A stretch of DNA of 57,629 nt from a virus. Location: the IMG/VR virus record IMGVR_UViG_3300020220_003659, positions 1-57,629 of that record. One strand, given 5' to 3'. A model generated the notes under the pieces. It worked only from the letters and a program-made list of their open reading frames with translations, made no database searches and was not told the origin of the DNA. The position numbers were made by a program, and so were the translations under genes. Positions 8,624 through 57,198 of the stretch are shown here, piece by piece; positions within the stretch are counted from its first letter, which is position 1, and each line of letters starts with the position of its first letter.

Positions 8624-10399
8624 ATGGCTCTGTCCAAAGAACAAGTAATGGTCGAGTATGTGAGATGTCTTAAAGACACTCCATATGCTCTTAGAACATA
8701 CCTCCAAACATACGATAACACGGTATCCAAATATGTACCTTTAGAATTATTTCCAGATCAAGTCTCATTACTACACGATTATGAAGAACACGAGGAAAAC
8801 ATCGCTTTAAAATATAGACAAGCAGGAGTCTCAACTGTAACGGCCGCTTGGATTTCCAAAAAATTAGTTTTTGCTAAAAAAACACAACCCGAAAAAATTC
8901 TAATTATCGCCAACAAACTTGATACATCTCAAGAAATGGCAAACAAAATCAGGGCCTTTATTGATCAATGGCCTACGTGGGTTGGTGCTGGTTTTGCACC
9001 TGAAAAAAATTCACAAAGACATTATAAGTTGAATAATGGTTCCGAGGTAAAGGCGGTTGCAACCTCTAAAGATGCTCTACGTGGTTTTACACCAACAATT
9101 CTTGTTTTTGATGAGGCTGCGTTTATCGAGGCCGATAATGACTTTTGGGCTGCTTGTATGGCCTCTCTATCTACTGGGGGTAAAGTAATTGTAATCTCAA
9201 CACCAAATGGTTATGACCAAATTTATTATGAAATTTACGATCAAGCTTTGAAAGGAATGAATCAATTTAAAATTTCAGAAATGTATTGGTATAGAGATCC
9301 AAGATATTCAAAAGATCTATATCTTGTACCTACAGATGATTTAGTTCATTACTTAATTAATAGAGAGGATTTTGACGAATCTGTAAACATATCTTTTGGG
9401 CATGTTGATCCATATGAAAGGGATTATTCTGAATTACAATCTTATTTTGACAAAGGTTTCAAACCTTGTTCTACTTGGTACGAAAAAATGGTTAAAAAAC
9501 TCAAGTATGATAAAAGAAAAATTAACCAAGAGTTAAATTGTGAATTTTTAGGTTCAGGGGATAACGTATTTGATAATAAAGATTTAGAATACATCAAAAA
9601 TAATTTGTTGAGTGAACCAACAGGTAAAATGATGGGAAACTCTTTATGGATTTGGAAAGAGCCTGTTGAAGGTCATAAATATGTTATGGGGGTCGACGTA
9701 TCGAGAGGTGATAGTGAAGACTTTTCATCAATACAAATTATAGATTTTGACGAAAGAGAACAAGTTTTTGAGTATGTTGGAAAAATACCTCCTGATGCTT
9801 TAGCAGAAATCGCTTATAAATGGGCAGTAATGTACAACTCATTTATTGTTGTCGATATTACAGGTGGTATGGGAATCACGACCGTTAGAAAATTACAAGA
9901 ATTGGGCTACAAAAATTTGTATATTGACGGTGTTGACACAACAAGTATTTGGTCGTATAACCCAAAAGCAATGGATAAAATTCCTGGTATAAACTTTAAT
10001 TCAAAAAGAGTTCAAATTATTGCCGCGTTAGAGGAGGCCGTTAGACATAAGTTTAAATTGAAAAGTGTTAGACTTTATAATGAGATGAATACTTTTGTGT
10101 ATGTAAATGGAAGACCTGATCACCAAAAAGGACAACATGATGACTTAATAATGGGAATTGCTATGGCAATTTACGTTGGGGAATCTTCTTTTTCTAAATT
10201 ACAAAAGGCAACAGAACACACAAAAGTAATGATAGAATCTTGGAACGTCGCATCAAATGAACAACTCACACAACAATTACAATTCAATCCTACAATGCCA
10301 AATGCAAATATGATGAATGACAGATTCAGAAATAATAATAATGGACCTTCCAAAGACGATTATATGAAATATGGTTGGCTATTTGGAACAAGAAGATAA
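8624..10399 (+). CDS. terL: Terminase large subunit (gp17-like)
   Basis: This 591-residue protein is the DNA-packaging motor and headful nuclease. The ATPase half has a Walker A-like YRQAGVSTVTAA (64-75), Walker B with catalytic Glu in LVFDEAAF (160-167), and coupling motif VISTPNG. The nuclease half shows the RNase H-like acidic triad: D358 in GVDVSRGD, D411 in VVDITGG and D506/D507 in QHDDLIMG. Length and order match T4 gp17 (610 residues). The P-loop is of the degenerate terminase type, with Arg-Gln before Ala-Gly-Val-Ser-Thr. It is the best anchor for calling this a T4-like phage. Confidence 0.97.
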   Translation: MALSKEQVMVEYVRCLKDTPYALRTYLQTYDNTVSKYVPLELFPDQVSLLHDYEEHEENIALKYRQAGVSTVTAAWISKKLVFAKKTQPEKILIIANKLDTSQEMANKIRAFIDQWPTWVGAGFAPEKNSQRHYKLNNGSEVKAVATSKDALRGFTPTILVFDEAAFIEADNDFWAACMASLSTGGKVIVISTPNGYDQIYYEIYDQALKGMNQFKISEMYWYRDPRYSKDLYLVPTDDLVHYLINREDFDESVNISFGHVDPYERDYSELQSYFDKGFKPCSTWYEKMVKKLKYDKRKINQELNCEFLGSGDNVFDNKDLEYIKNNLLSEPTGKMMGNSLWIWKEPVEGHKYVMGVDVSRGDSEDFSSIQIIDFDEREQVFEYVGKIPPDALAEIAYKWAVMYNSFIVVDITGGMGITTVRKLQELGYKNLYIDGVDTTSIWSYNPKAMDKIPGINFNSKRVQIIAALEEAVRHKFKLKSVRLYNEMNTFVYVNGRPDHQKGQHDDLIMGIAMAIYVGESSFSKLQKATEHTKVMIESWNVASNEQLTQQLQFNPTMPNANMMNDRFRNNNNGPSKDDYMKYGWLFGTRR

Positions 10400-12258: not shown

Positions 12259-15012
12259 ATGGAAAATAATAATCAAAATCTAACTGTTTGGCAAAGGTTA
12301 TCCCAAACTTTTGGACCTAACTCTTTGTTGGGGATGGGACAACCATCCTACAAGTTAGACAAAAAAGAGCTACTTAAAACAACAAGTAAACAAGAGTACG
12401 ACAAAGCAAAACTCCAACAACAACAATCTTTATTTCTCAGTAATCAGTGGGGTAAAATTGAAAATAATCTATACACTCAGGCGGTCTATTATGAACCAAC
12501 AAGATTGGCGGCATTTTATGATTACGAATCGATGGAATATTGTTTGGCGGGAGACACAAAAATTGCAACTCCAAATGGTTTTGTAACAATTAAAGAGTTA
12601 TCCGAAAGGGGCAAAGATTATGAGTTTATAACTTACGCCTACGATCACAATCTTAAAAAAGTAGTGCCTGCGATGGCAAGAAACGCTCATTATACTCGAG
12701 ATGAAATGACATATAAAATCACATTTGATGATGAAAGTTTTATCATTGCAACTTGGGAACACCAATTTATGAAAAGGGATGGTTCGTTTGAGAGAGTCAT
12801 GAATCTAAAATCAGGTGACTCAATGATGCCGTTTTATCGTAAATCTTTTTATAATAATCAAAAATATAATTGGGTTTACACTTGTAATTCAAAAGAAGGA
12901 CATAATGGATGGATTTCAGAACACAACTTAATTGCGGAGTGGTTTTACGATGTTAATGTAAATGATGATGAGGAAGTTCATCATGTAAATTTTGATGGTA
13001 AAAATAATTTACCTGAGAATTTACAAATAATGAAAATATCAGAACACAGATCATATCATGCTAAAATAAATAATGAAAAATTATGGTCAAATCCTGATTA
13101 TAGAAAAAAAATGTCAGAGGTTGCAAAAAGAAAAGGAAAACTAGTGTGGGGTGGAAGACGAATTGGAGATAAAAACCCTGCTTTTTTAAAAATTGGTTGG
13201 GATAATATCATCGAAACCGCAAGAAAAATAAAAACTTTGAAAGGGACCGCCAAAGAATTAAATGTTTCTTACCGAAAACTACAAAGAGATGTTGTTTCGA
13301 ACGGGTATCAAGATTGGAACACTTTTTTAACCGCATATGGAATTCAAAAATCACCATACTCAACCGCGAGGGCAAAAAATGATGTAATTAATTTAAACCA
13401 CAAAATAGTGTCAATTGAACCTCATGGTATTGTTCCTGTTTATGACTTAACGGTTCCTGGATATAAAAATTTTGCAACGGACTCGATCTTTTCACATAAT
13501 ACCCCTGAAATCTCAACCGCATTGGACATATATGCTGAAGAATCTACAACACCAAATCAAGATGGTTATGTGTTACAAGTTTATTCAGAATCAAAAAGAA
13601 TAAAATCAATATTAGTAGACCTCTTTCTTAATAGGTTGGATATCAATACAAATTTACCCATGTGGATTAGAAACATGTGTAAATATGGTGATAACTTTGT
13701 GTACTTAAAATTAGATCAAGAAAGAGGTGTTATAGGTTGTTTACAACTACCAAACATTGAGATAGAAAGGGTGGAAAGAGGTATGGAAACAAGAACTTTC
13801 TCTGCGGTTCCAAACATTAAACAAAAATCTTTAAAATTTTCTTGGAAAGAAAAAAATTCAGAATTTAACACTTGGGAGGTTGCACATTTCAGACTTTTAG
13901 GTGATGATAGAAAATTACCTTACGGAACCTCGATGTTAGAGAAAGCACGTCGTATATGGAAACAATTAGTTTTGGCTGAAGATGCGATGTTAATTTATCG
14001 TACATCAAGGGCTCCTGAAAGAAGAATATTTAAAGTTTATGTTGGAAACATGGACGACAAAGATGTGGAGGCATACGTACAAAGAGTTGCTAACAAATTT
14101 AAAAGAGAACAAATCGTTGATAATAAAACAGGAAATGTAGATTTAAGATTTAACCAAATGGCCGTTGATCAAGATTATTTTGTTCCTGTACGTGACCAAG
14201 CAGCACCTGACCCAATTACAACACTTCCAGGTGGTACAAACTTATCAGAAATTGCCGATATTGAATATATCCAAAAGAAACTTGTAACCGCACTTAGAAT
14301 ACCGAAGGCTTATTTAGGGTTCGAAGAACCTGTGGGTGATGGTAAAAACTTATCTTTGTTAGATATTAGGTTTGCAAGAACAATCAACAAAATCCAAAAA
14401 AGTGTAATTGCAGAAATGAACAAAATTGCAATTATTCACTTATTTTTAATGGGGTTCGAAGATGAGTTAGAAAACTTTACTTTATTACTTAACAACCCAT
14501 CAAAACAAGCAGATCTATTGATGATTGATGTTTGGAAAGAAAAGGTTTTATTATACAAAGATTTAGTTGCCGAAGTTCCAAAATCCATACAAGCAACCTC
14601 CGCAACCTGGGCTAAAAAACATATATTTGGTTTCTCTGATGAAGAAATTAAAGTTGATGTACAACAAATACGAATGGAAAGAGCGGTTTCTGCCGAATTA
14701 GACAACACGGCCACAATCATTACTCACACAGGTTTATTTGATAATGTTGATAAATTGTACGGAACAATTACGGGAGACACTAAACCGGCTGAAGGTGGTG
14801 AAGCACCTGAAGAAGGAGGAGGAGCCCCTCCACCACCTCCAGGACCAGCTCCTGAACCTGCACCAGGACCACCAATCCCTGAGAATGTAGAGGTAAATAA
14901 GAATCTTAAAATTTTAACAGAATCAAAAGAAGAAGAATTTTGGGATTTTGAAAAGGGAACTCAATCTTTTGGGGATCTAGATGAACAATTATCAAAACTT
15001 TTGGGTGACTAA
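12259..15012 (+). CDS. 20: Portal protein (gp20-like) interrupted by an intein
   Basis: The translated product is 917 residues; removing the intein (residues 95-414) leaves 597, close to T4 gp20 (524) plus a tail. The extein joint would read SMEY then TPEISTALDIYAEE, the conserved gp20 segment. Downstream features typical of T4-like portals include WIRNMCKYGDNFVYLK, YGTSMLEKARR, and LGFEEPVGDGKNLSLLDIRFA. The C-terminus has a Pro/Gly/Ala linker followed by an acidic tail. Portal forms the dodecameric vertex ring through which terminase packages DNA. The gene sits 48 bp behind the previous one with its own TATTTAT element. Confidence 0.96.
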   Translation: MENNNQNLTVWQRLSQTFGPNSLLGMGQPSYKLDKKELLKTTSKQEYDKAKLQQQQSLFLSNQWGKIENNLYTQAVYYEPTRLAAFYDYESMEYCLAGDTKIATPNGFVTIKELSERGKDYEFITYAYDHNLKKVVPAMARNAHYTRDEMTYKITFDDESFIIATWEHQFMKRDGSFERVMNLKSGDSMMPFYRKSFYNNQKYNWVYTCNSKEGHNGWISEHNLIAEWFYDVNVNDDEEVHHVNFDGKNNLPENLQIMKISEHRSYHAKINNEKLWSNPDYRKKMSEVAKRKGKLVWGGRRIGDKNPAFLKIGWDNIIETARKIKTLKGTAKELNVSYRKLQRDVVSNGYQDWNTFLTAYGIQKSPYSTARAKNDVINLNHKIVSIEPHGIVPVYDLTVPGYKNFATDSIFSHNTPEISTALDIYAEESTTPNQDGYVLQVYSESKRIKSILVDLFLNRLDINTNLPMWIRNMCKYGDNFVYLKLDQERGVIGCLQLPNIEIERVERGMETRTFSAVPNIKQKSLKFSWKEKNSEFNTWEVAHFRLLGDDRKLPYGTSMLEKARRIWKQLVLAEDAMLIYRTSRAPERRIFKVYVGNMDDKDVEAYVQRVANKFKREQIVDNKTGNVDLRFNQMAVDQDYFVPVRDQAAPDPITTLPGGTNLSEIADIEYIQKKLVTALRIPKAYLGFEEPVGDGKNLSLLDIRFARTINKIQKSVIAEMNKIAIIHLFLMGFEDELENFTLLLNNPSKQADLLMIDVWKEKVLLYKDLVAEVPKSIQATSATWAKKHIFGFSDEEIKVDVQQIRMERAVSAELDNTATIITHTGLFDNVDKLYGTITGDTKPAEGGEAPEEGGGAPPPPPGPAPEPAPGPPIPENVEVNKNLKILTESKEEEFWDFEKGTQSFGDLDEQLSKLLGD
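12541..13500 (+). mobile_element. Intein with HNH homing endonuclease, in frame in the portal gene
   Basis: The 320-residue insert starts with Cys (CLAGDTKIATPNG, block A) and ends in SHN with Thr as the next extein residue, a complete splice-junction set. The block B-like motif is TWEHQF. The C-terminal blocks are IVPVYDLTVPGYKNF and the terminal His-Asn. The centre carries an HNH nuclease signature (VHHVNFDGKNNLPENL) followed by helices that look like a DNA-binding NUMOD/HTH segment (about 13190-13330). All splicing residues are intact, so it should be active. The insertion point lies in the most conserved part of the portal, as is common for inteins. Confidence 0.95.
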
Positions 15013-15048: not shown

Positions 15049-15765
15049 ATGAAATTTGGTGAATTAAAATCTAAAATTGAAAAATGTCTAACTGAGTCTT
15101 ATTCTAAGAATTCAGTTAAAAAAGATCTCTTTGTATTCAAAGAGTTGGTATTAAAAAATAAAAATGTTTCAAAATTATTTTATTTATACGATGAGTTGTC
15201 TTCAAAAAAAGGATTAAACGAAGAAGTTGCAAATGAATTTGTAAACCAATCAATAACAATTTATGAAAACACAATAAATAAAATTTCTAAAAATGATTTA
15301 AAAGAACTTTCTTCATGGGTTGGTCATATCAAAACAAATAACGAATATTCAAATATCGATGACTTATTTTTAGTTGGTTTGTTGAACTTAGAATCAAAAA
15401 TAAAAAGTAAAAGAATTATAGTTGAAAACTTAAAGACAGAAGAAATCAAAAGAAATATTGAGGTTATCAACGTCCCTTTAAAATCTATGGCAAGTGTTGC
15501 AAATAAAACAATTAAATCTTATCTTTCCAATTTGAATGAAGGCGAACAAAAAGAAATTTTAAAAATTTTAAATACACCGAAAGAAAAATTGGTAGAACAA
15601 TATAATAACACAAAACAACTTGTTTTGGAAAAATTAGAGAAACAAAAAGAATCAAGCGATTTAGAAACAAAAAGAACAATTGATGAGGTTGTTAATAAAT
15701 TAATGAACGAAAATTGCGATGAGTTAAACTACTTCAAACTCAAAACTTTGTCTGAAGGTCTTTAA
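15049..15765 (+). CDS. Putative prohead core protein, 238 aa
   Basis: Not matched to a named family. It is Lys/Glu-rich and almost entirely helical, with coiled-coil-like stretches, and sits between portal and protease where T4 has core genes 67 and 68. The N-terminus (FGELKSKIEKCLTE then SYS) resembles the short targeting peptides that T4 gp21 cleaves after an L-x-E motif. It converges with the bS21 gene on the other strand and their ends overlap by 4 bp. A role as an internal core or scaffold protein is inferred from position and composition. Confidence 0.75.
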   Translation: MKFGELKSKIEKCLTESYSKNSVKKDLFVFKELVLKNKNVSKLFYLYDELSSKKGLNEEVANEFVNQSITIYENTINKISKNDLKELSSWVGHIKTNNEYSNIDDLFLVGLLNLESKIKSKRIIVENLKTEEIKRNIEVINVPLKSMASVANKTIKSYLSNLNEGEQKEILKILNTPKEKLVEQYNNTKQLVLEKLEKQKESSDLETKRTIDEVVNKLMNENCDELNYFKLKTLSEGL

Positions 15766-15950
15766 ATATTGTTTTTGTATTTTTGGATGTGAATGGCTTT
15801 TTGAAGAACCTTTCTTTTTTTAACAGATTTCTTTTCAAATTCTTTTCTCTCAAACAAAATCTTACTTTGTTTTGTTCTTATAACTTTTCCCTTCAACTCC
15901 TTGAGAGCTCGTTCAATATTTCCTTTATTGTCTACTTTTACTACTAACAT
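15762..15950 (-). CDS. rpsU: Ribosomal protein bS21 homologue
   Basis: The 62-residue protein matches small-subunit protein bS21. The N-terminal strand VVKVDNKGNIERALKELK corresponds to the conserved start with its Asn/Asp-Ile-Glu/Asp-Arg-Ala-Leu helix. It is followed by a Lys/Arg-rich second helix (RKEFEKKSVKKRKVLQKA) and a short tail. The form resembles Bacteroidota bS21 in length and in the A-x-IQK ending. bS21 binds 16S rRNA near the anti-Shine-Dalgarno end and affects initiation. It is on the strand opposite the head genes, between core protein and protease, with its own TATTTAT element. No Shine-Dalgarno is visible upstream. Phage bS21 genes are known in other large phages; the direct effect here is inference. 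Confidence 0.88.
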   Translation of the reverse strand: MLVVKVDNKGNIERALKELKGKVIRTKQSKILFERKEFEKKSVKKRKVLQKAIHIQKYKNNI

Positions 15951-15967
15951 AATTTTGATTGGTTGAT

Positions 15968-15974
15968 ATAAATA
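15968..15974 (-). promoter_or_regulatory. TATTTAT element for bS21 (reverse strand)
   Basis: Read on the reverse strand, TATATTTATATC places TATTTAT 17 bp before the bS21 ATG at 15950. Confidence 0.45.
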
Positions 15975-16027
15975 TAATAATTGATTAAAATTACTAAAAA
16001 TAAACCTATGAAGTATGAAAAAATTAC

Positions 16028-16516: not shown

Positions 16517-17245
16517 ATGATCGATTTAAAAATATTAGGACCAAGAGATACAGGTCGTGGAATTCTTGTTGAGTACGACGCAGGATACATAGATCCAAAT
16601 GAAAGAAGAAACTTATCGATGATTAGAGAAAATCGAGATATGTTAGACCATTCGAAACCATTTGAATTTTATGCGGTACTTCAAAAATACGATGTACCAA
16701 ATAGAAATGGAAGAATATATCCTGAAAAGATATTAAAACGAGAGGCTGAAAATTATAAGAAAATGATTCAAAAAGGAACTGCTCTTTCTGAGTTAAATCA
16801 CCCTGAGTCTTCTCTTATAGATCTAGATCGTGTATCACACGCAATTACAGATATTTGGTGGGAAGGACCTGTATTATTAGGTAAATTAAAATTACTTACA
16901 TCACCTGGGTTTCATGAAAGAGGTATTGTATCAACAAAAGGTGACTTGGCAGCAAACTACCTACGTCAAGGAGTTACATTAGGTATTTCTTCTCGTGGCG
17001 TCGGATCTCTTAAAAAAGTCGGCGAACAAAATGAAGTTCAGGATGATTTTGAATTAATTTGTTTTGACTTGGTATCATCACCATCTACACCAGGGGCTTA
17101 TTTGTTTTTGGATCCTGCGGACCGTGTTAACTTTGAAGAAAACCTCGATGAAGAAAAACAAAGACAAGTTGAGCGTCATGTTGGTGAAACTGGAAATGCA
17201 TCTCTTGACTTAATGAAAAGATTGACCGATTATTTAGATAAATAA
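16517..17245 (+). CDS. 21: Prohead core protease (gp21-like)
   Basis: The protein is 242 residues and has the herpesvirus-assemblin/T4 gp21 serine protease pattern. The catalytic His is in SELNHPE (H95), the catalytic Ser in LGISSRG (S158 or S159), and a following Asp in CFDLVSSPSTPGA (D184) could complete the triad. An N-terminal segment around VLQKYDVPNRNGRIYP is also typical. It cleaves scaffold and capsid proteins after L/I-x-E motifs during maturation and then digests itself. T4 gp21 is about the same size (212). It is followed at 7 bp by a small protein and then the scaffold gene. Confidence 0.95.
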   Translation: MIDLKILGPRDTGRGILVEYDAGYIDPNERRNLSMIRENRDMLDHSKPFEFYAVLQKYDVPNRNGRIYPEKILKREAENYKKMIQKGTALSELNHPESSLIDLDRVSHAITDIWWEGPVLLGKLKLLTSPGFHERGIVSTKGDLAANYLRQGVTLGISSRGVGSLKKVGEQNEVQDDFELICFDLVSSPSTPGAYLFLDPADRVNFEENLDEEKQRQVERHVGETGNASLDLMKRLTDYLDK

Positions 17246-19256: not shown

Positions 19257-21131
19257 ATGGGAGCATTATTAGAATCAGGTCTTGTTGGTAACATCGGTCT
19301 TAAGCACCTTAAAGTTATCAAAGAAGACACTATTAACAAATGGGACAGATTAGGCTTTTTAGATGGTCTAAGAGGTCACTTGAAAGAAAACGTGGCTCAA
19401 TTATATGAGAACCAAGCTTCTTACTTAATCAACGAAGCAACTTCTGACGGATCTTCAAACGGAGCGTTCGAAACAGTTGTTTTCCCGATCGTAAGACGTG
19501 TATTCTCTAAATTGTTGGCTAACGATATCGTTTCTGTACAAGCAATGAACTTACCAATCGGTAAATTGTTCTACTTCGTACCACGTATCCAAGGATACGC
19601 TAACGACGTACAAAATGATGGTGGTGGAGAACACTACGCACCTTACGGAGCACCCAATGCGGCTGCTAATCAAACACCTAACTCAGGTTATCCAGGAGCA
19701 CCTTCACCTAATTACCCTTACGGAAAAAATCTTTACGATTTATTCTACGAAGGTAATGAAGCGGCTTTAGATCCTCCAGGATTATTCGACTACTCAAAAG
19801 GTAGATGGACGGCTTGTACTACTGAAACTTCAGTACAAAAATGGGTAAACGGAGAGTTAGTTGACGCTCTTGATGATGATCCTGTATATGTAGGACCAAA
19901 CGTAAGAAAAATCTTAATGAAACTTTGTGGATTTACTTCTACAGGTGCTGGTAAACTTATCGGACCTGACGGTCAAGAAATGGACACAGAATCTTTCCTT
20001 TCTGACTTAGTTATCACAAAATTTGCAGGTTTTGTACAAGCCCCTAATTCACCATGTCCTGTAGGTTCTGGACCACTTCTTTTCAGAGTTGTGACTCAAA
20101 TCTACGGTAAAGGTATCGTTCAATACGGACAACAAACACAAACCAACTTCAATAACTTGACTTACCCTGCGACTTATAATAACAACACAGGAAACGGTGG
20201 AAACTATTGGGATATTTGTGACTCACAAGGTTGTATCTATCTTGAAGTAGACCTTTCTTGTCCAGCATGTCCTGACTGTGGTGATACTTCATTAGATGGT
20301 TACACAGGTGTAACTCTTACAGCCCTTACTTCAGGTACATCATTCCAAGCAACTTGGAGACGTTACGAAGAAATGGAATTCGAAGACAAAATTGGTGAGG
20401 TTTCTTTTGACCTTGAGTCAGTAACTGTATCTGTTACAGAAAGAAAACTAAGAGCACAATGGTCTCCTGAATTAGCTCAAGACGTTGCGGCATTCCATAA
20501 CATCGACGCTGAGGCTGAATTGACAGCATTGTTGTCAGAACAAGTGGCAGCTGAGATCGACCGTGAAATTTTACGTGACTTACGTAAAGGTGCGGCTTGG
20601 AACTTACGTTGGGATTACAACGGATGGAGAAGAATTGGTGATACCACTTCTTACACTCAAAAAGACTGGAACCAAACTTTGATTACAGCAATCAACCAAT
20701 TGTCAGCACAAATCCACAAATCTACTTTGAGAGGTGGTGCTAACTGGATCGTTGTATCTTCTGAGATTTCAGCTATTTTTGACGACTTAGAATACTTCCA
20801 CGTATCTAACGCGGCTCCTGAGCAAGATCAATACAACATGGGTATCGAAAGAGTAGGTACGTTATCAGGACGTTACCAAGTTTATCGTGATCCTTACTTC
20901 CCACCAAACCAAGTGTTGGTAGGTCACAAAGGAACATCATTGTTAGACACAGGTTACATCTACGCACCGTATGTACCTCTACAATTGACACCTACAATGT
21001 ACAACCCATTCAACTTTACACCTATCAAAGGTATTATGACACGTTACGCTAAGAAAATGGTTAACAACCGTTTCTACGGACGTATCACAGTTGATGGAGT
21101 TAGAACATTTGACTTGAGAGAATTGAGATAA
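19257..21131 (+). CDS. 23: Major capsid protein (gp23-like)
   Basis: The 624-residue protein has the T4-like capsid N-terminus (a helical region with WDRLGFLDGL), then FPIVRRVFSKLLANDIVSVQ and PIGKLFYFVPRI. The C-terminal half has ELAQDVAAFHNIDAEAEL, LTPTMYNPFNFTPIKGI and KMVNNRFYGRITVDGV. A protease site I-N-E then Ala at residue 60 parallels the gp23 cleavage after Glu65. A central Gly/Asn/Cys-rich section (about 120-365) is longer than in T4 and contains a CPACPDCGD motif that could bind metal. Codon choice is more C-ending than in the neighbours (AAC, TAC, GAC, CGT), as in highly expressed genes. A strong terminator follows 20 bp after the stop. Confidence 0.96.
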   Translation: MGALLESGLVGNIGLKHLKVIKEDTINKWDRLGFLDGLRGHLKENVAQLYENQASYLINEATSDGSSNGAFETVVFPIVRRVFSKLLANDIVSVQAMNLPIGKLFYFVPRIQGYANDVQNDGGGEHYAPYGAPNAAANQTPNSGYPGAPSPNYPYGKNLYDLFYEGNEAALDPPGLFDYSKGRWTACTTETSVQKWVNGELVDALDDDPVYVGPNVRKILMKLCGFTSTGAGKLIGPDGQEMDTESFLSDLVITKFAGFVQAPNSPCPVGSGPLLFRVVTQIYGKGIVQYGQQTQTNFNNLTYPATYNNNTGNGGNYWDICDSQGCIYLEVDLSCPACPDCGDTSLDGYTGVTLTALTSGTSFQATWRRYEEMEFEDKIGEVSFDLESVTVSVTERKLRAQWSPELAQDVAAFHNIDAEAELTALLSEQVAAEIDREILRDLRKGAAWNLRWDYNGWRRIGDTTSYTQKDWNQTLITAINQLSAQIHKSTLRGGANWIVVSSEISAIFDDLEYFHVSNAAPEQDQYNMGIERVGTLSGRYQVYRDPYFPPNQVLVGHKGTSLLDTGYIYAPYVPLQLTPTMYNPFNFTPIKGIMTRYAKKMVNNRFYGRITVDGVRTFDLRELR

Positions 21132-23879: not shown

Positions 23880-24347
23880 TTAACAAAATGCCCCTGAACA
23901 CCTTCGTTTTCCGTCAAGTCCTTTAATTTTTCCTTTACAAACTTGTACGGCGTGACCATTTGAATATGCACTGGGGTACACGTCATATTTTGCTTTTGCA
24001 GAGGCAATTCCTCTAGCACAAAGTTTTGTACCTGTTTTTTTTCTACCTTCCATCATGACCATATCTTCATCATCAATATTCATGGATAGTTCCATACCAT
24101 CTCTTTTGGACTCATTCATTAAAAAATCAAAAACTTGATCCATGTTGTTTTTTGCTTCCGAAATGTGGTCTTGAGCCCAATCATGCCCGTTTTCTAAAAT
24201 AGACTCAACCATTTCGTGATCTAAATCTAATAATAAATCACACTGCCTTCTCATTTGTTCTAAATTGGAGAAGAACATATATCTTGATGATTTTTCTTCT
24301 TGAGTTTCTCTAATAACTCTTTTAATGATTGAATCTAAGTTTCTCAT
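23880..24347 (-). CDS. Hypothetical protein with C-terminal Cys/Lys motif, 155 aa
   Basis: The N-terminus MRNLDSIIKRVIRE is followed by a Thr and looks like a short targeting helix ending at a protease site. Residues 30-95 are helical and acidic. The C-terminal 55 residues (CARGIASAKAKYDVYPSAYS, then VQVCKGKIKG and RRCSGAFC) form a compact basic region with four cysteines. Similar tails occur in marine phage proteins of unknown role. It could be packaged in the head, by the N-terminal feature, but this is inferred. Confidence 0.72.
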   Translation of the reverse strand: MRNLDSIIKRVIRETQEEKSSRYMFFSNLEQMRRQCDLLLDLDHEMVESILENGHDWAQDHISEAKNNMDQVFDFLMNESKRDGMELSMNIDDEDMVMMEGRKKTGTKLCARGIASAKAKYDVYPSAYSNGHAVQVCKGKIKGLDGKRRCSGAFC

Positions 24348-48300: not shown

Positions 48301-49027
48301 AACAACAACTCCAGCTCCTTCAGTAACACCAACACCAACACCTACTATGACCGTGACACCTACGGTCACACCAAGCCCTATTCCTGGTTTAACACCAACG
48401 CCAACACCTACAATTACAGTAACTGCAACAATTACACCTACACCAACACCTTCCGCGGCGGCAGCAAAAACATCATATCTATTCATAGAGCCTGTAACAG
48501 GAGCAACAAATATTGGTCAATGGATGTTCGACGGAGGAAGAGACTTCTTTGGATTTACAAATTATAGTCAACCTACTCAAAATGTACCATTATTTAATTT
48601 AGATATGAACAGATATGTTGACTTTACAGGATGGACTTCAGGTTTATTCCCAACAATAATAACTCAAAATGTTCCTATTTCATCTGGAGGGTTAGATTCT
48701 TTTGGGAACTCAATAGTTGCATTTAACTTCACAACAACCGAAGTTCTTGAAAATACGGTACCTGTTGATGCTTGGTATACTTGGATTATACCAGTGGCGG
48801 CTACTAATTTTGAAAGGCAAATAATAATTGATCTAAATGACAATGGAAATCCTAATCTTTTAACTGCCGTTCACACAGAAGATACAATAAATTATTATAC
48901 GTTTACGTATACAGGAACGACACTTCCGACCGCAACTTACCGTGTTTATACAACTTACCCAAGTCCGATATTTAAAATATTGAACAACAAAACTATTTAT
49001 TTTAGAGGAAACGAAGTAGAACCGTAA
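45320..49027 (+). CDS. Giant adhesin-like virion protein with nested domains, 1235 aa
   Basis: Residues about 210-222 (KGWTVEMLLKPR) and about 824-853 (RLKIYVNGRKFFTIENF) read as the first and later strands of one concanavalin/LamG-like sandwich. Between them are a Cys-rich stretch (about 282-352), a Pro-Thr linker (about 354-368), a beta domain related to those at 10408 and 24350 (about 372-548), another Pro-Thr linker (about 604-618) and a second Cys-rich stretch. A third long Pro-Thr linker (about 988-1048) leads to a C-terminal beta domain. The ATG at 45320 is preferred over 45299, because a TATTTAT element is between them. It is likely an external adhesion protein. The stop overlaps the next gene's ATG (TAATG). 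Confidence 0.82.
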   Translation: MAYQNINQYNYPKLKLQLVYDGQDMSLASDEKNFNEEVVFSPYLIAQTYGKKLPVYFDIDNPLTWIPKELTYKNYDQTNIFVSQNYYEPDGLDLDCFKVDTACDIGLTGIDNGLVNQMTGKTITFTNGLFNDFLKFQRLYFDRRLKMFQVTGYTGTYNRFSAITQQTLYEVVSKDNIAVGKYHELYGGFYQGFHKLFGYDYDILPNRVNKGWTVEMLLKPRLFEEYQPGPGETTLNEIYPRNKNMFFYWGTRAENKFYHHANGSPWNYSGYTRVTSPLYNCIETCACCNTGVTNSRCIYVYPPRSQNNQHDPHVNYGCNVCNGNPTPQCGCSCGQLPCLECGWECQTHTCAPASPTPTPTPTPTTVPVSCENCENQINLPLPGNSISYVSGITISASGSGDITTNGLPTGFIDDCGFINLQNSIALGQNVPFGSPYTYTLTFSQPVNNISIVLLGYNIAFGPSPTEYFVITTNTGNNTPEITLCSGCCASISGNVITASNVNGDCVPETNSGAGQFNIRNSQPFTSLTISGNGGSSGSLITICDHTPLEINNAIITQDGYYLIVGDNQYLSFSGSNTIVPENLSENFYNDNWTEEVYVVDKLDFPNPSPTPTPTPTLPPYEFVCPPDKPSPTCSPQANICNSCGFPIDDCDGGTCSSCGCGCNQPKPNPWSSVEDTCEKDPKYDTISNNLAFKLGGDPKNPTICVRVLKITGACEVSGTCVTGVTYETGCTITEICTPPIYPYCLEVNPAWLELEHWFQIDAVWERYTYIESCDLFWYGGLGVLTREEYLQSLANNAPSLIAPPYTNDRAVAEKITLIQMNNLWLEQEKFRRGRLKIYVNGRKFFTIENFEEMIPRALSTDKERQLGVPFNMSWGGGTQGLHENLTFSACTDLLGNYIQDPECFPTNILDQSSLSGMTTNILLEENFGGTFDGGISQFRFYVEPLGADEVKHNFKLLKDKFLMFDPDCPVCDTEFCEPNDFTSIVIPVSPTPTPTTTPAPSVTPTPTPTMTVTPTVTPSPIPGLTPTPTPTITVTATITPTPTPSAAAAKTSYLFIEPVTGATNIGQWMFDGGRDFFGFTNYSQPTQNVPLFNLDMNRYVDFTGWTSGLFPTIITQNVPISSGGLDSFGNSIVAFNFTTTEVLENTVPVDAWYTWIIPVAATNFERQIIIDLNDNGNPNLLTAVHTEDTINYYTFTYTGTTLPTATYRVYTTYPSPIFKILNNKTIYFRGNEVEP

Positions 49028-52000
49028 TGTCAGGATTATATCAAAACCCAATCACACCTATATCAGTATTAGGACCAAGTTCGGTACCTAGAATAAAACC
49101 TTTTGGCACCAATTTTAGCGTTGTAGGGGTTGGTGGATACATGGAGGTTTACAATTTAAGTGATCTTTATTTTACCGTTCCACTGTCAACAACAGGAAGT
49201 ATAGAAAACAGCGGAAATACTATTCCAATACAATTTTCAAAAGGTACAGGTTCTTCATTTTCTCCTGATGTATTAACATTAAACTCCGATAATATTTCTT
49301 CCGGTAGAAGGCGATTGGGTATGTTGGTGTACGTTTATGAAACAGATACATTTTATCAATATCATATAAACAATTATCAAACTTTATGGTCAAATGCTAC
49401 GGGATCCACAGGTCTTGGTGGACCAACTGTTGTAATATCAAATTTTGGCACCACAATAAAATCAAATTCACCAAGTGGAATTCAATTTATAAATCAATGG
49501 TTATCTAACAAAATTGAGGGTATAAGTGGTGAAACCGCATCAACTGCTGTTTGGAGGCTTTTTGGTGTGTCGGGAGCAACGGGTACAAGTGGTACTTCAG
49601 GTACTAATGGGTCGAGCGGAACTTCAGGTACTAATGGAACAAGTGGTACTTCAGGCACAAACGGAACTTCAGGTACTAACGGCACAAACGGAACTTCAGG
49701 TATAGATGGATTTAGCGGAACTTCAGGAACTAATGGTACTTCAGGAACCAACGGAACTTCAGGTATAGATGGATTTAGCGGAACTTCAGGAACTAATGGT
49801 ACTTCAGGAACCAACGGAACTTCAGGTACTAACGGTACAAATGGATCATCGGGTACTAATGGAGCTAGCGGTACAAACGGAACTTCGGGTATTAACGGCA
49901 CAAACGGAACTTCGGGTACTAACGGAACTTCAGGTACTAATGGAACTTCAGGTATAGATGGATTTAGCGGAACTTCAGGAACTAACGGAACTTCGGGTAT
50001 AAATGGGACATCAGGAACTAACGGAACAAATGGTACTAGCGGTACGAATGGAACCTCGGGAACTAACGGTACATCAGGAACTAACGGAACAAATGGTTCT
50101 AGCGGTATAAATGGCACAAATGGTTCAAGTGGAACTAGCGGAACAAATGGTACGAGCGGGACCAACGGTACATCAGGAACCAACGGAACTAGCGGTACTA
50201 GCGGTACAAATGGAACTTCAGGGACTAATGGTACTAACGGAACTTCAGGAACAAATGGAACTTCAGGTACAAATGGAACCTCAGGAACGAACGGTACAAG
50301 TGGTACTAGCGGCACCAACGGTACATCAGGAACCAATGGTACTAGTGGAACTAACGGTACATCAGGTACAAACGGAACTTCAGGAACCAATGGTACAAGC
50401 GGAACCAATGGTACAAACGGTACCTCAGGAACTAATGGGACTAATGGAACGAATGGTACATCAGGCACAAATGGTACTAGCGGAACTAACGGTACAAGTG
50501 GAACGAGCGGGTCATCAGGGACAAATGGTACTAGTGGAACTAACGGTACAAATGGAACCAGCGGAATAAATGGTACTAACGGGACAAGCGGTACCAACGG
50601 TACTAACGGAACGTCGGGAACAAATGGTACTAACGGTACTTCAGGTACTAACGGGACAAGCGGTACCAACGGTACTAACGGAACGTCAGGAACAAATGGT
50701 ACTAACGGTACTTCAGGTACTAATGGAACAAGTGGTACGAATGGAACAAGTGGAAGTTCAGGGACTAACGGGACTAGCGGTACGAATGGAACTTCCGGAT
50801 CAAGTGGTACAAACGGAACAAGTGGAAGTTCAGGGACTAACGGGACTAGCGGTACGAATGGAACATCGGGAACAAGTGGATCTTCAGGTACTAATGGTAC
50901 AAGTGGAACTAATGGAACATCAGGTACAAATGGTACTAGTGGAACAAATGGTACGAATGGAACTAGCGGTACTAATGGAACTTCAGGAACAAATGGAACT
51001 AACGGGACTAGTGGAACTAACGGTACTTCAGGAACAAATGGTACTAACGGAACTTCAGGATCAAGTGGAACCAATGGTACCAGTGGAACTAATGGTACTA
51101 GTGGGGCAAACGGAACTTCAGGAACAAATGGTACAAATGGCACTTCGGGAACAAATGGGACTTCAGGTACAAATGGTACTTCGGGAACCAATGGAACCAA
51201 TGGGACTTCAGGTACAAATGGAACCAACGGCACAAGCGGCACCAATGGGACTTCAGGAACAAACGGTACTAGTGGAACGAACGGAACTAATGGTACCTCA
51301 GGTACTAATGGAACTTCAGGAACCAATGGTACGAATGGAACAAGTGGAACTAACGGTACGTCAGGTACAAATGGGACTTCAGGGACTAACGGAACTAATG
51401 GAACTTCAGGAACCAATGGTACGAATGGAACAAGTGGAACCAACGGGACTTCAGGAACCAACGGAACAAGTGGTACGAATGGTACTTCAGGTACAAACGG
51501 AACATCAGGTTCTAGTGGAACAAATGGTACAAGCGGTTCATCAGGAACTAACGGTACTAGCGGTACAAACGGGACTAGCGGAAGTTCAGGATCTTCGGGT
51601 ACAAATGGTACATCAGGATCAAGTGGAATTAGCGGTTCTTCAGGAACTAACGGAACAAATGGAACATCAGGTTCAAGTGGTACGAATGGTACTAGCGGTA
51701 CAAACGGAACAAGTGGATCTTCAGGAACAAATGGAACTAGCGGAACTAATGGGACATCGGGTTCATCAGGAACTAATGGTACATCAGGAACTAACGGAAC
51801 TTCAGGTACAAACGGTACGAGCGGTTCGTCAGGGTCAAGTGGAATAAATGGAACTTCAGGCACAAACGGTACCTCAGGATCAAGTGGAACTAACGGTACT
51901 AGCGGTACTAATGGTACAAGCGGTTCTTCAGGAACTAATGGTACTAGTGGTACAAACGGTACAAGTGGGTCTTCAGGTACAAATGGCACATCAGGTACTA

Positions 52001-55000
52001 ACGGAACATCGGGAACGAACGGTACAAATGGAACGTCAGGAACTAATGGTACATCAGGTACTAACGGAACAAACGGCTCAAGCGGAACTGATGGAACATC
52101 TGGTACAAACGGAACTTCGGGAACAAACGGTACATCAGGAACTAATGGAACCAACGGTACATCGGGTACAAACGGAACTAATGGGACTTCAGGGACTAAT
52201 GGAACTAACGGTACTAGCGGAACGAACGGGACTTCAGGAACTAATGGTACAAATGGATCAAGTGGAACAAACGGAACTAGTGGTACGAATGGTACATCAG
52301 GAACTAATGGAACTAATGGAACAAGTGGCACTAACGGAACTTCAGGTACTAACGGAACCAATGGTACAAGTGGAACTAATGGTACAGATGGTACTAGCGG
52401 AACGTCGGGTACAAACGGAACTAATGGTACTAGCGGTACTAATGGAACGTCGGGTACAAACGGAACATCAGGATCTAGCGGTACTAATGGAAGTTCAGGT
52501 ACAAACGGAACGTCGGGTACTAATGGAACAAACGGTACTAGCGGGACAAATGGCACAAGTGGAACAAATGGAACATCGGGTGTAAATGGTACAAGTGGGA
52601 CTAATGGCACATCAGGTAGTAGTGGTACAAACGGAACATCAGGTTCAAGCGGAACCAATGGGACATCAGGTACAAATGGAACTTCAGGATCTAGCGGAAC
52701 AAATGGAACAAGCGGAACGGATGGAACAAGTGGTACATCAGGGACTAACGGAACAAGCGGAACGAATGGAACAAGTGGTTCTTCAGGAACCAATGGGACA
52801 TCTGGATCTTCGGGCACAAACGGAACTAGTGGTACAAATGGAACCAACGGGACTTCAGGAACTAACGGAACTAATGGTACCTCAGGAACAAATGGTACAA
52901 ACGGAACATCGGGAACAAATGGCACCAATGGAACAAATGGTTCAAGCGGCACGAATGGAACTAACGGTACAAATGGTACGTCCGGAACTAATGGAACCAA
53001 CGGAACATCGGGTACCAACGGTACGTCAGGTACAAATGGAACTAATGGAACAAGTGGCACTAACGGAACTTCAGGTACTAACGGAACCAACGGGACTTCA
53101 GGGACTAATGGAACAAATGGTACTTCAGGTACTAATGGATCATCAGGAACTAATGGCACAAACGGAACTTCAGGGACAAATGGGACTAACGGGACAAATG
53201 GATCAAGTGGAACGAATGGTACTAGTGGAACAAATGGAACATCAGGAACAAATGGAACTTCTGGTACAAATGGTACAAGCGGCACAAATGGAACCAACGG
53301 GACTAGTGGAACAAATGGTACATCAGGAACTAATGGTACAAATGGTTCAAGCGGAACTAATGGAACTAGCGGTAATAATGGAACTTCAGGAACAAACGGT
53401 ACTAACGGAACAAGTGGTACAAATGGAACAAATGGTACGAATGGTACTTCGGGGACTAATGGAACCTCAGGTACAAACGGAACAAACGGTACTAGCGGGA
53501 CAAATGGCACAAGTGGAACTAATGGGACAAATGGTTCAAGTGGTACCAACGGGACTTCAGGGACTAATGGAACAAGTGGTTCGTCAGGAACTAACGGTAC
53601 TAATGGAACTTCTGGATCTTCAGGTACAAATGGAACTAGCGGAACTAATGGGACATCGGGTTCATCAGGAACAAATGGTACTAGCGGTTCTTCAGGAACT
53701 AACGGTACTAGCGGATCATCAGGATCAAGTGGTACTAATGGTACTAGCGGATCATCAGGAACTAACGGAACATCAGGATCAAGCGGTACTAATGGAACCT
53801 CTGGTACAAACGGTACAAGTGGTACTAATGGAACCAATGGTACTTCGGGGACTAATGGAACAAATGGTACTTCGGGGACTAATGGTACTAGCGGAACAAA
53901 TGGTACAAATGGTACTAGTGGAACGAACGGAACAAACGGCACTTCAGGCACAAACGGGACATCAGGCACCAATGGAACTTCTGGAACTAACGGGACTAAT
54001 GGAACCAACGGTACTAGCGGAACAAATGGAACTTCAGGTACAAATGGCACGTCAGGGACTAATGGGACAAACGGAACTTCAGGGACTAATGGAACATCGG
54101 GAACAAATGGTACGAACGGTACTAGCGGGACTAATGGAACATCAGGTACAAATGGTACTTCAGGGACTAATGGGACAAACGGAACTTCAGGGACTAATGG
54201 TACCAGCGGAACTAATGGAACCAGCGGAATAAATGGTACTTCAGGAACAAATGGTACAAATGGTACTAGCGGAACCAATGGAACAAACGGAACGAATGGG
54301 ACTTCAGGAACCAACGGAACTTCAGGTACGAATGGAACAAACGGAACGAATGGTACTTCAGGAACAAATGGTACAAATGGTACAAGTGGAACTAATGGAA
54401 CTTCGGGTACAAATGGTACTAGCGGAACAAATGGTACATCAGGAACAAATGGAACTAATGGAACCTCAGGAACGAACGGTACGAATGGTACTTCAGGAAC
54501 AAATGGTACCAGCGGAACAAATGGTACATCAGGAACAAATGGAACATCAGGTACTAATGGAACAAATGGTACTAGCGGTACAAATGGAACATCAGGTACA
54601 AACGGAACAAATGGAACATCAGGTACAAACGGAGCATCAGGTACCAACGGTACTAGTGGAACGTCGGGAACAAATGGAACTAACGGAACTAGTGGTACAA
54701 ACGGAACTAGTGGTACAAACGGAACAAATGGTACCAGCGGAACAAATGGTACATCAGGTACTAATGGAACAAATGGTACTAGCGGTACAAATGGTACTTC
54801 GGGAACCAATGGAACCAATGGGACTTCAGGTACAAATGGAACCAACGGCACAAGCGGCACCAATGGGACTTCAGGAACAAATGGTACATCAGGTACTAAT
54901 GGAACAAATGGTACTAGCGGTACAAATGGAACATCGGGCACAAACGGAACCTCAGGAACAAATGGAACCAACGGTACAAGCGGTACCAATGGTACAAGTG

Positions 55001-57198
55001 GAACCAACGGAACTTCAGGTACAAACGGGACAAATGGTACTAGCGGAACTAACGGTACTTCAGGTGTTAACGGAACAAGTGGTACAAATGGAACTAGCGG
55101 AACGTCAGGAACAAATGGTACTTCAGGTGTTAACGGAACAAGTGGTACTAATGGTACATCAGGAACGAATGGAACCAGCGGAATGAATGGTACTTCAGGA
55201 ACAAATGGTACAAATGGAACTAGCGGAACAAATGGTACATCAGGAACGAATGGAACTAGCGGAACTAACGGTACTTCAGGTGTTAACGGAACAAGTGGTA
55301 CAAATGGAACCAACGGTACAAATGGATCTTCAGGAACAAGTGGTGGAGGTGGAGGTGGTTGTTTAACCGAAAATACTTTAATTGCATCAAATTCAGGTAG
55401 TTTCAATATTCGTATACAAGATGATCGTAGTACGGAATTTCTTTTTATGGGAAATTCGGAATGTGGTTGGAATGGTTGTTATTGGGACAACGGATCTTCA
55501 TTTGGTTTAGCACCAAGACCTATTAGAGGTTCGGAAAGTTGGTTTGGTGTACCTTCACCAGTTGACGTAAGATCAGGAGATAGTATTAGATTATGTGGAA
55601 ACATATATTGGGAAACCCCTTCTGAAACAAGTTATACACCTTCGTTTGTCGTTTCTTTATATTATTACCAATGTAATGATTTAGGAGACTTTATACCACT
55701 TACCTCAGTTATATCACCAACATATTATACTTGGACTTCGGATTGGTTATGTTTTGATGTTTCACATACTTTTACGGAATATAAAAATGCTTGTGATGTA
55801 TTTTTTGTTGTAGGGTTTAATATGATACAAGATAGTCCTGATGCAGCAAACCCAAGATTCACATATACATTAAATTATGAAAAAGATTGTTCAATTCCTG
55901 ATGGTGAATTTTATGTTTTAAGAAACTGTTGTGAACCTACTGTAACAGAAATTATAGTAGGAAACGGTCTTACACTTGGTACTTTTTGGAGTGACGCTCA
56001 AGGTAACTGTTGGGAAATAGAAAGTACTAGTTTCACGGCACCAAATAGTTTTAGAACATTAGTTAATAATTACGCAAGTTGTGCGGATTGTATTTCTTCT
56101 AATGAATGTCCTGATAATGCAGTTATAAGTAGTTGTTGTGTTGAGGGAGTAGAATTTGTGACAGGATCTTTAGGTTTAACAATAGGTGACACTTTTGTTG
56201 ATGATGACGGTTTATGTTGGGAAGTACTTACAGGGACAACCGCACCTGTAACTGCACCAACAATTACAATTGGAACAACTGGATATACCGATTGTGATGA
56301 TTGTGAGGTTACAAACCCTTGTCCTGAATTTTGGCTAATTGAGTCTTGTTGTAAAAATCTACCATCTGAAGTCATATCAATTCCTGCAGGAACTGTTTCG
56401 AATAGTCAAACATGGATAGACTCAGATGGATACTGTTGGGCAATTGGTAGCAAAACAAATTCATTACCAACAAATTACGACATAACTTTAGTAACACAAT
56501 ATTCGTCTGTTCGTGATTGTACGGAATGTAATGATGATAACCCTTGTCCTGAAGTTATTTACACAACAATAAGACAATGTTGTGACCCGCTTCAAGTTGA
56601 AACTTTTTCAGCATATACAACTATTTCAGTAGGTTCAATAATCCAAGATATTAATGGTATTTGTTGGGAAGTAGTCGGGTGGGCATTTACTGGAACAATA
56701 ACAATTGAACCACCTTTAGTTTTCAAAAGTTATTCTACTTGTGAAAATTGCTTAATAACGGTAAACGGATGTCCTGATTATTATTTATTCTCAGCATGTT
56801 GTGAAACAGGATTTACAGAAATTGCATACGGTGTGTTTATTACAGGTGCAACATACCAAGCATTTCCAAGTAGTAACTGTTATACTTGTGTATCTCTAAC
56901 TACTGGTACACCTACAATGAATTTTTGGTTTAGCCTGCATTTTGAATCTTGTGAGGATTGTATCGAAACATATCCATGTTCTTATGTTGAGATTTCAGAT
57001 TGTTGTGGATTATTACCCAATAAAATAGTCTATAATGATGGAAATTCTATTTTAAATGGTACTTTCTACGACAGTACAAGTGATAATTGTTGGTCTTTTG
57101 TTAGTTACACTACAGGGCCTGCAACTTTAACTTTAGGTACGATTACTCCATATCTTGATTGTGATGTATGTATTTCTTTTAACGCATGTACAGCATAG
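49027..57198 (+). CDS. Giant collagen-like fibre with six cysteine modules, 2723 aa
   Basis: The N-terminus (1-182) is beta-rich and probably attaches to the virion. Residues 183-2105 are about 640 Gly-X-Y triplets, mostly GTN and GTS with few exceptions (GID, GFS, GVN, GAS). After a Gly-Cys hinge (GGGGGGCLTENT) comes a beta domain (about 2113-2290). Residues about 2296-2723 form six tandem modules of 65-75 residues, each with a CC start, a D-x-x-G-x-CW-like motif and closing C-x-x-C plus C-P. The triplets have almost no Pro, unlike animal collagen. This suggests a long trimeric fibre with receptor-binding heads. Reverse and other-phase long frames in the repeat are mere shadows. It is coupled to the gene upstream by TAATG. 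Confidence 0.88.
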   Translation: MSGLYQNPITPISVLGPSSVPRIKPFGTNFSVVGVGGYMEVYNLSDLYFTVPLSTTGSIENSGNTIPIQFSKGTGSSFSPDVLTLNSDNISSGRRRLGMLVYVYETDTFYQYHINNYQTLWSNATGSTGLGGPTVVISNFGTTIKSNSPSGIQFINQWLSNKIEGISGETASTAVWRLFGVSGATGTSGTSGTNGSSGTSGTNGTSGTSGTNGTSGTNGTNGTSGIDGFSGTSGTNGTSGTNGTSGIDGFSGTSGTNGTSGTNGTSGTNGTNGSSGTNGASGTNGTSGINGTNGTSGTNGTSGTNGTSGIDGFSGTSGTNGTSGINGTSGTNGTNGTSGTNGTSGTNGTSGTNGTNGSSGINGTNGSSGTSGTNGTSGTNGTSGTNGTSGTSGTNGTSGTNGTNGTSGTNGTSGTNGTSGTNGTSGTSGTNGTSGTNGTSGTNGTSGTNGTSGTNGTSGTNGTNGTSGTNGTNGTNGTSGTNGTSGTNGTSGTSGSSGTNGTSGTNGTNGTSGINGTNGTSGTNGTNGTSGTNGTNGTSGTNGTSGTNGTNGTSGTNGTNGTSGTNGTSGTNGTSGSSGTNGTSGTNGTSGSSGTNGTSGSSGTNGTSGTNGTSGTSGSSGTNGTSGTNGTSGTNGTSGTNGTNGTSGTNGTSGTNGTNGTSGTNGTSGTNGTNGTSGSSGTNGTSGTNGTSGANGTSGTNGTNGTSGTNGTSGTNGTSGTNGTNGTSGTNGTNGTSGTNGTSGTNGTSGTNGTNGTSGTNGTSGTNGTNGTSGTNGTSGTNGTSGTNGTNGTSGTNGTNGTSGTNGTSGTNGTSGTNGTSGTNGTSGSSGTNGTSGSSGTNGTSGTNGTSGSSGSSGTNGTSGSSGISGSSGTNGTNGTSGSSGTNGTSGTNGTSGSSGTNGTSGTNGTSGSSGTNGTSGTNGTSGTNGTSGSSGSSGINGTSGTNGTSGSSGTNGTSGTNGTSGSSGTNGTSGTNGTSGSSGTNGTSGTNGTSGTNGTNGTSGTNGTSGTNGTNGSSGTDGTSGTNGTSGTNGTSGTNGTNGTSGTNGTNGTSGTNGTNGTSGTNGTSGTNGTNGSSGTNGTSGTNGTSGTNGTNGTSGTNGTSGTNGTNGTSGTNGTDGTSGTSGTNGTNGTSGTNGTSGTNGTSGSSGTNGSSGTNGTSGTNGTNGTSGTNGTSGTNGTSGVNGTSGTNGTSGSSGTNGTSGSSGTNGTSGTNGTSGSSGTNGTSGTDGTSGTSGTNGTSGTNGTSGSSGTNGTSGSSGTNGTSGTNGTNGTSGTNGTNGTSGTNGTNGTSGTNGTNGTNGSSGTNGTNGTNGTSGTNGTNGTSGTNGTSGTNGTNGTSGTNGTSGTNGTNGTSGTNGTNGTSGTNGSSGTNGTNGTSGTNGTNGTNGSSGTNGTSGTNGTSGTNGTSGTNGTSGTNGTNGTSGTNGTSGTNGTNGSSGTNGTSGNNGTSGTNGTNGTSGTNGTNGTNGTSGTNGTSGTNGTNGTSGTNGTSGTNGTNGSSGTNGTSGTNGTSGSSGTNGTNGTSGSSGTNGTSGTNGTSGSSGTNGTSGSSGTNGTSGSSGSSGTNGTSGSSGTNGTSGSSGTNGTSGTNGTSGTNGTNGTSGTNGTNGTSGTNGTSGTNGTNGTSGTNGTNGTSGTNGTSGTNGTSGTNGTNGTNGTSGTNGTSGTNGTSGTNGTNGTSGTNGTSGTNGTNGTSGTNGTSGTNGTSGTNGTNGTSGTNGTSGTNGTSGINGTSGTNGTNGTSGTNGTNGTNGTSGTNGTSGTNGTNGTNGTSGTNGTNGTSGTNGTSGTNGTSGTNGTSGTNGTNGTSGTNGTNGTSGTNGTSGTNGTSGTNGTSGTNGTNGTSGTNGTSGTNGTNGTSGTNGASGTNGTSGTSGTNGTNGTSGTNGTSGTNGTNGTSGTNGTSGTNGTNGTSGTNGTSGTNGTNGTSGTNGTNGTSGTNGTSGTNGTSGTNGTNGTSGTNGTSGTNGTSGTNGTNGTSGTNGTSGTNGTSGTNGTNGTSGTNGTSGVNGTSGTNGTSGTSGTNGTSGVNGTSGTNGTSGTNGTSGMNGTSGTNGTNGTSGTNGTSGTNGTSGTNGTSGVNGTSGTNGTNGTNGSSGTSGGGGGGCLTENTLIASNSGSFNIRIQDDRSTEFLFMGNSECGWNGCYWDNGSSFGLAPRPIRGSESWFGVPSPVDVRSGDSIRLCGNIYWETPSETSYTPSFVVSLYYYQCNDLGDFIPLTSVISPTYYTWTSDWLCFDVSHTFTEYKNACDVFFVVGFNMIQDSPDAANPRFTYTLNYEKDCSIPDGEFYVLRNCCEPTVTEIIVGNGLTLGTFWSDAQGNCWEIESTSFTAPNSFRTLVNNYASCADCISSNECPDNAVISSCCVEGVEFVTGSLGLTIGDTFVDDDGLCWEVLTGTTAPVTAPTITIGTTGYTDCDDCEVTNPCPEFWLIESCCKNLPSEVISIPAGTVSNSQTWIDSDGYCWAIGSKTNSLPTNYDITLVTQYSSVRDCTECNDDNPCPEVIYTTIRQCCDPLQVETFSAYTTISVGSIIQDINGICWEVVGWAFTGTITIEPPLVFKSYSTCENCLITVNGCPDYYLFSACCETGFTEIAYGVFITGATYQAFPSSNCYTCVSLTTGTPTMNFWFSLHFESCEDCIETYPCSYVEISDCCGLLPNKIVYNDGNSILNGTFYDSTSDNCWSFVSYTTGPATLTLGTITPYLDCDVCISFNACTA
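49573..55341 (+). repeat. Gly-X-Y coding repeat, about 5.8 kb (GTS/GTN)
   Basis: A 9-bp periodic coding repeat of about 641 triplets. At DNA level synonymous codons are shuffled (GGA/GGT, ACT/ACA/ACG, AAT/AAC, TCA/AGT/AGC). Longer blocks are duplicated: a 72-bp unit in tandem at 50575-50718 with one change, and a 98-bp block at 51166-51263 repeated exactly at 54784-54881. Confidence 0.97.
55912..57195 (+). repeat. Six tandem cysteine-rich coding modules
   Basis: Six diverged modules in the C-terminus of the giant fibre, starting at NCCEPTV, SCCVEGV, SCCKNLP, QCCDPLQ, ACCETGF and DCCGLLP. The fifth and sixth lack parts of the closing CP or the CWE motif. The overall order of cysteines is kept. 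Similar single modules form the small proteins at 25124 and 25417. Confidence 0.85.

Follow-up and report, generated by a model that had tools for sequence, protein, structure and literature searches.

Phage-encoded ribosomal proteins of a bS21 subfamily, antisense among head genes and lacking the Shine-Dalgarno site of Flavobacterium-type rpsU

Why would a phage keep a gene for a ribosomal protein on the opposite strand of its head genes, and is that gene controlled as the host's own copy is? The question is raised by a 57.6-kb fragment taken from an IMG/VR virus record and analyzed over its whole length (the window), in which a preliminary description made from the letters alone had placed an antisense bS21 gene, with exactly the coordinates and strand that the open reading frame list and Pfam support (Table 1). 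Genes of this kind are known from the huge phages of freshwater Bacteroidetes, with genomes of about 300 kb, TerL clades a-e, and 14 genomes from IMG/VR (Chen et al., 2022; PMC9723584), in which bS21 is transcribed late; the late expression supposed for the window gene is therefore already published for this phage group. As in those phages, the window bS21 lies on the reverse strand between two hypothetical genes within the TerL, portal, protease, and MCP genes, is Bacteroidetes-like with Tyr or His at position 54, and diverges from host bS21 in its N-terminal part. We found no difference in kind. The window is a 57.6-kb fragment, and one relative reaches 272 kb. The head-gene context had been put forward as the novelty of the locus, a claim that falls to the earlier description in PMC9723584: the window bS21 was correctly observed, but genes of its kind are already published.

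A diverged phage subfamily of bS21

The window protein passes the curated gathering cut-off of Pfam Ribosomal_S21 (PF01165; 30.4 bits against 27, E 3.2e-7), and this family is matched by all 32 phage members scanned (E 0.001 or better), certain of which score slightly under the cut-off. On the NCBIfam equivalog model TIGR00030, it scores 18.9 bits, below the cut-off of 28.95, a model that gives 53-55 bits to three host Bacteroidota bS21s and 19-31 bits to another five phage members; because of this gap, we class it in a homologous yet distinct, diverged phage subfamily and not as the host equivalog. Among solved structures it is nearest to the bS21 chains 9i5v and 7jil, of which 7jil comes from the F. 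johnsoniae ribosome. The AlphaFold2 model (pLDDT 91.5) contains both helices of the expected two-helix fold, at 12-34 and 41-61, whose lack the preliminary description had named as one observation that would tell against bS21. Foldseek searches with this model gave weak matches only, all three in organelle ribosomes, and the INPHARED phage isolate records yielded only three distant matches, to unannotated metagenomic phages of 642-735 kb. No tRNAs and no Rfam matches were found in the window.

The alignment and tree of host and phage sequences proposed at the outset place the protein on the Bacteroidota side, as do the Pfam and PDB matches, in keeping with its first characterization as Bacteroidota-like. 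A maximum-likelihood tree built from 89 bS21s joins all 35 distinct phage proteins in a single group (support 100/99) among Bacteroidota sequences. We claim only this grouping, since the alignment is no more than 64 columns long and the tree has numerous unresolved forks and long branches that come together. The window protein shares with host Flavobacterium bS21 (rpsU, PDB 7jil) the two-helix architecture and the residues of the C-terminal half (K40, S42, R46, K51, A52, Y/H54, and Q56 are common to phage and host), but differs in its sub-cut-off equivalog score, in residues 18-37, in having no extended Shine-Dalgarno (SD) site, and in being preceded by a phage promoter-like element. Position 54 is aromatic in the anti-SD-masking bS21 of Bacteroidia. 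Of the 35 distinct phage proteins, 32 carry Tyr there and 3 carry His; the window protein carries His rather than Tyr, which fits that pattern and is also found in 2 of 60 host proteins. Phage bS21 is under strong purifying selection (median pairwise dN/dS 0.09 among the 35 distinct homologues, the pairs not being independent), as already published for viral ribosomal proteins (PMC6375957), and with this value, 35 homologues, and PF01165 in 32/32, the window gene is no chance open reading frame. Two or three bS21 genes per genome occur in several members of a Bacteroidota-centered sample (G053, G104, G112, G119, G134, and G156).

The substitutions that set the phage proteins apart are clustered at 18-37 and nearly fixed across the phage group: host R18, Y19, R21, F23, D24, G27, T28, V29, and A37 are replaced by phage-specific residues. 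Such a pattern could reflect specialized ribosomes, the hypothesis of Chen et al., in which changes in the N-terminal half, close to the path of the mRNA, would give ribosomes an active preference for phage over host transcripts; PMC9723584 argues for it. The bS21 of the Pelagibacter myovirus HTVC008M is likewise phage-encoded, although it belongs to a phage of another host phylum and was apparently acquired separately; it enters E. coli 70S ribosomes and leaves in vitro GFP synthesis at about 5% (PMC6375957). A phage bS21 can thus alter output, but according to the same authors the low activity may be a heterologous incompatibility. Host mRNAs, moreover, are themselves SD-less and A-favoring (PMC6847099), which leaves no evident feature separating phage from host messages, and we consider an active preference rather unlikely.

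The head-gene block and a lineage without bS21

Table 1. Positions of bS21, its upstream elements, and the flanking head genes in the window.
Feature	Position	Strand	Evidence or remark
Terminase large subunit (TerL)	8624..10399	+	Terminase_6N 6.5e-13; phrog_2 1.6e-43
T4-type portal, interrupted by an intein with HNH-type endonuclease	12259..15012	+	Portal_T4 4.9e-74; Intein_splicing 4.4e-14; PHROG HNH families
ORF15049, 238 aa	15049..15765	+	Convergent with bS21, stop codons overlapping; conserved in relatives
bS21 gene	15762..15950	-	62 aa, ATG start, His at position 54; Pfam PF01165, PDB chains 9i5v/7jil, tree
Remainder of bS21 leader	15951..15961	-	No Shine-Dalgarno; GGAG/GAGG/AGGA absent in 25 nt
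TATATTTATATCAAC, conserved promoter-like element containing TATTTAT	15962..15976	-	Upstream of bS21
Conserved AAATAAAC	15998..16005	+	Reads GTTTATTTTT on the strand of bS21 in most relatives; also present in the lineage that lost bS21
ORF16028, 155 aa	16028..16495	+	Divergent from bS21; AF2 pLDDT 87.7
Prohead core serine protease (Peptidase_S77)	16517..17245	+	Pfam 5.2e-23
Major head protein (MCP)	19257..21131	+	phrog_138 3.5e-65

The matches to a T4-type portal, an S77 protease, and an MCP confirm what had been noticed from the letters, that bS21 sits antisense within a head block, here a T4-like one that also includes TerL. Its convergent neighbor, ORF15049, occupies the position of a T4 gp67/68-type core gene, by synteny only, and the divergent ORF16028 possibly corresponds to bS21_CN of PMC9723584. 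The fold of ORF16028 is weakly YbjN-like (Foldseek 6vu7, E 0.014, probability 0.99, TM 0.45), a resemblance too weak at this E and TM to yield any clue to function. Within ORF15049, the bS21 strand can form a terminator-like hairpin at 15144-15127; relatives do not conserve it, and we attribute it to chance.

The arrangement recurs in 77 of 80 IMG/VR loci retrieved with bS21 itself. To avoid the bias of such retrieval, we re-sampled with the protease as anchor, counting those loci that extend 1400 nt or more upstream of it, and found antisense bS21 in 61/65 relatives and no bS21 in 4/65. The head-block position is not universal, as the three exceptions among the 80 (L064, L074, and L076) carry bS21 of this phage group in different genomic surroundings, near a PhoH gene in L064. 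The conserved position fits a non-ribosomal role, raised in PMC9723584, in which this small basic nucleic-acid-binding protein would reside in the capsid or be brought in with the genome. We find this very improbable: the C-terminal residues are conserved, including aromatic residue 54, the three exceptional loci have no such head genes beside bS21, and the head genes persist in a lineage that has lost bS21.

That lineage comprises the four negative contigs (L292-L295), which count as one because a single intergenic sequence is common to all. Its protease is about 83% identical, and both ORF16028 and ORF15049 are kept; in place of bS21 there is a gap of about 150 nt that includes a terminator-like hairpin, and a possible remnant of the bS21 upstream element, TATATATCAA, is also seen. 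No other bS21 was found on the available contigs, which are fragments of up to 59 kb. A strict coupling of bS21 to both of its neighbors is refuted by these four contigs of one lineage; we did not find such a loss, with both neighbors kept, described in PMC9723584. Since the lineage seems viable, phage bS21 appears to be helpful rather than essential.

Tolerated loss also accords with an explanation in which the phage only supplies the protein: exchangeable bS21 would be topped up late, perhaps while host expression is down, so that ribosomes stay competent on SD-less mRNA with their specificity unchanged. Virus-encoded ribosomal proteins are mostly exchangeable ones (PMC6375957), bS21 is expressed together with the head genes (PMC9723584), and strong purifying selection is consistent with the same role. 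Supply alone, however, would leave the fixed phage-specific signature at 18-37 unexplained, and that nothing more is involved strikes us as quite unlikely.

Two other features of the window lie apart from this block. A 2723-aa protein (49027-57198, plus strand) contains a very long G-T-N/S tripeptide repeat, in an array at about 49585-55344, and is probably a tail fiber; the repeat is also the very likely source of the 1970-aa open frame opposite its gene, which we take for an artefact. An identical 78-nt stretch upstream of both minus-strand genes starting at 24347 and 25414 looks like a sign of local duplication.

A phage-wide promoter-like motif and a leader without Shine-Dalgarno site

Upstream of the window bS21, TATTTAT stands 24 nt from the ATG, and the longer element TATATTTATATCAAC is exact in 23/35 distinct phage bS21 leaders (57 loci), at -26 to -28. 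The nearby conserved AAATAAAC probably belongs to the leader of ORF16028. The preliminary description was right that TATTTAT is present at bS21, but the element is not special to this gene: counted within 45 nt upstream of genes against an expectation from its density, the motif precedes 100/310 genes in the 272-kb relative (6.9 expected; antisense control 35, a clear sense bias), about a third, and we therefore rejected it as a bS21-specific element. In the window, it precedes 16/53 genes (0.7 expected; antisense control 12), the high control being due in part to the overlap of the motif with its own reverse complement and to AT-rich intergenic regions. Its distribution is as for a promoter, with sites at 77/154 genes of the 272-kb relative that follow a gap or strand change versus 23/156 tightly packed genes, and makes TATTTAT a candidate phage-wide promoter-like motif. 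We call it phage-wide and not late-specific because its sites occur over the full length of the 272-kb contig. Matches to sigma-70-type promoters are no more frequent than in shuffled sequence. The main text of PMC9723584 makes no mention of promoters or motifs, and we did not find there a phage-wide TATTTAT that also precedes most phage bS21 genes.

The spacing and identity of the motif vary. In window genes 153, 4468, 5025, and 30986, TATTTAT lies at -11 to -13, and in one related genome (G001, L162-L175), the motif peaks at -11/-12, with 29 sites; transcripts starting from sites this near the start codon could be leaderless. In F. johnsoniae, most transcripts are leadered (PMC6847099). In a distant clade (L073, L075, L077, and L078-L081), the bS21 leader has no TATTTAT and instead shows a host-like TTG...TAACTTTG pattern, which suggests that the promoter class has been exchanged.

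The rest of the leader differs from that of many host copies. The survey of SD strength in phage and host that had been suggested finds GGAG, GAGG, or AGGA before the start in 0/80 phage bS21 loci (35 distinct leaders), whether 25 nt or 45 nt are considered, versus a purine-rich site of extended-SD type, by inspection, in 80/80 Flavobacterium-type rpsU leaders, a host sample that is skewed to Flavobacterium by the query and may not represent the host of this phage. An exact AGGAGG is found in 66/80 of these, and inspection shows a core of GGGGG- or GGGAGG-type in each of the others. Not every rpsU has an extended SD, as many non-Flavobacterium leaders in a wider Bacteroidota sample are without one; it occurs in many Flavobacteriales, is no strict requirement, and is absent from phage bS21. 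Phage genes generally show no SD enrichment, and their leaders are A-rich, which bears out the A-rich, mostly SD-less leaders of the preliminary description. The missing site need not, therefore, have been selected on bS21 specifically.

Its possible importance comes from the host side. In F. johnsoniae, rpsU is translated through its extended SD by ribosomes that lack bS21, and bS21 thereby autoregulates (PMC9976891). With no extended SD on the phage gene, feedback of this SD type cannot act on it. We found no statement in PMC9723584 either that phage bS21 is SD-less or that host rpsU and phage bS21 contrast in this way, and this angle on regulation is one that we did not find in the literature consulted.

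Possible consequences for host bS21 control

Taken as a whole, the observations are best explained by a phage bS21 that joins the host 30S subunit, leaves the anti-SD masked, and is produced beyond the reach of host feedback, an explanation to which we give about an even chance of being right. The basis computed here is the identity of the protein, the purifying selection on it, the residues kept in its C-terminal half and exchanged in its N-terminal half, the missing SD, and the shared promoter-like element. Counting against the explanation are the viable-seeming lineage without bS21, the many rpsU leaders outside Flavobacterium with no extended SD, His at position 54 in the window protein, its sub-cut-off equivalog score, and the general absence of SD enrichment in this phage. 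The gene would be transcribed from a TATTTAT-type phage promoter, as would its head-gene neighbors, and translated without an SD site. The product would be inserted in the 30S subunit of a Bacteroidota host, displacing host bS21, and its conserved C-terminal residues would hold the 3' tail of 16S rRNA. The anti-SD would thus stay masked and the SD-less, A-rich phage mRNAs would remain good templates, while the phage gene, having no extended SD of the host rpsU type, would escape host bS21 feedback. That phage bS21 might tune ribosomes to phage mRNAs, as first suggested for this locus, is plausible.

The consequences may go further. By filling bS21-free ribosomes, phage bS21 may switch off host rpsU, and with the host gene off and the phage copy outside the feedback, the ribosome pool would drift in one direction, toward phage bS21. 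That the phage in this way captures the feedback loop, evading SD autoregulation, masking the anti-SD, silencing host rpsU, and driving the pool to its own version, is a tentative proposal that we regard as possible but somewhat unlikely. For F. johnsoniae, rpsU reporters and bS21-depleted ribosomes exist (PMC9976891), and the difference in SD between host rpsU and the phage gene offers a direct test in this organism of why phages carry bS21 most among ribosomal proteins. Capture of the loop, if true, would mean that a virus has seized the feedback loop of a ribosomal protein.
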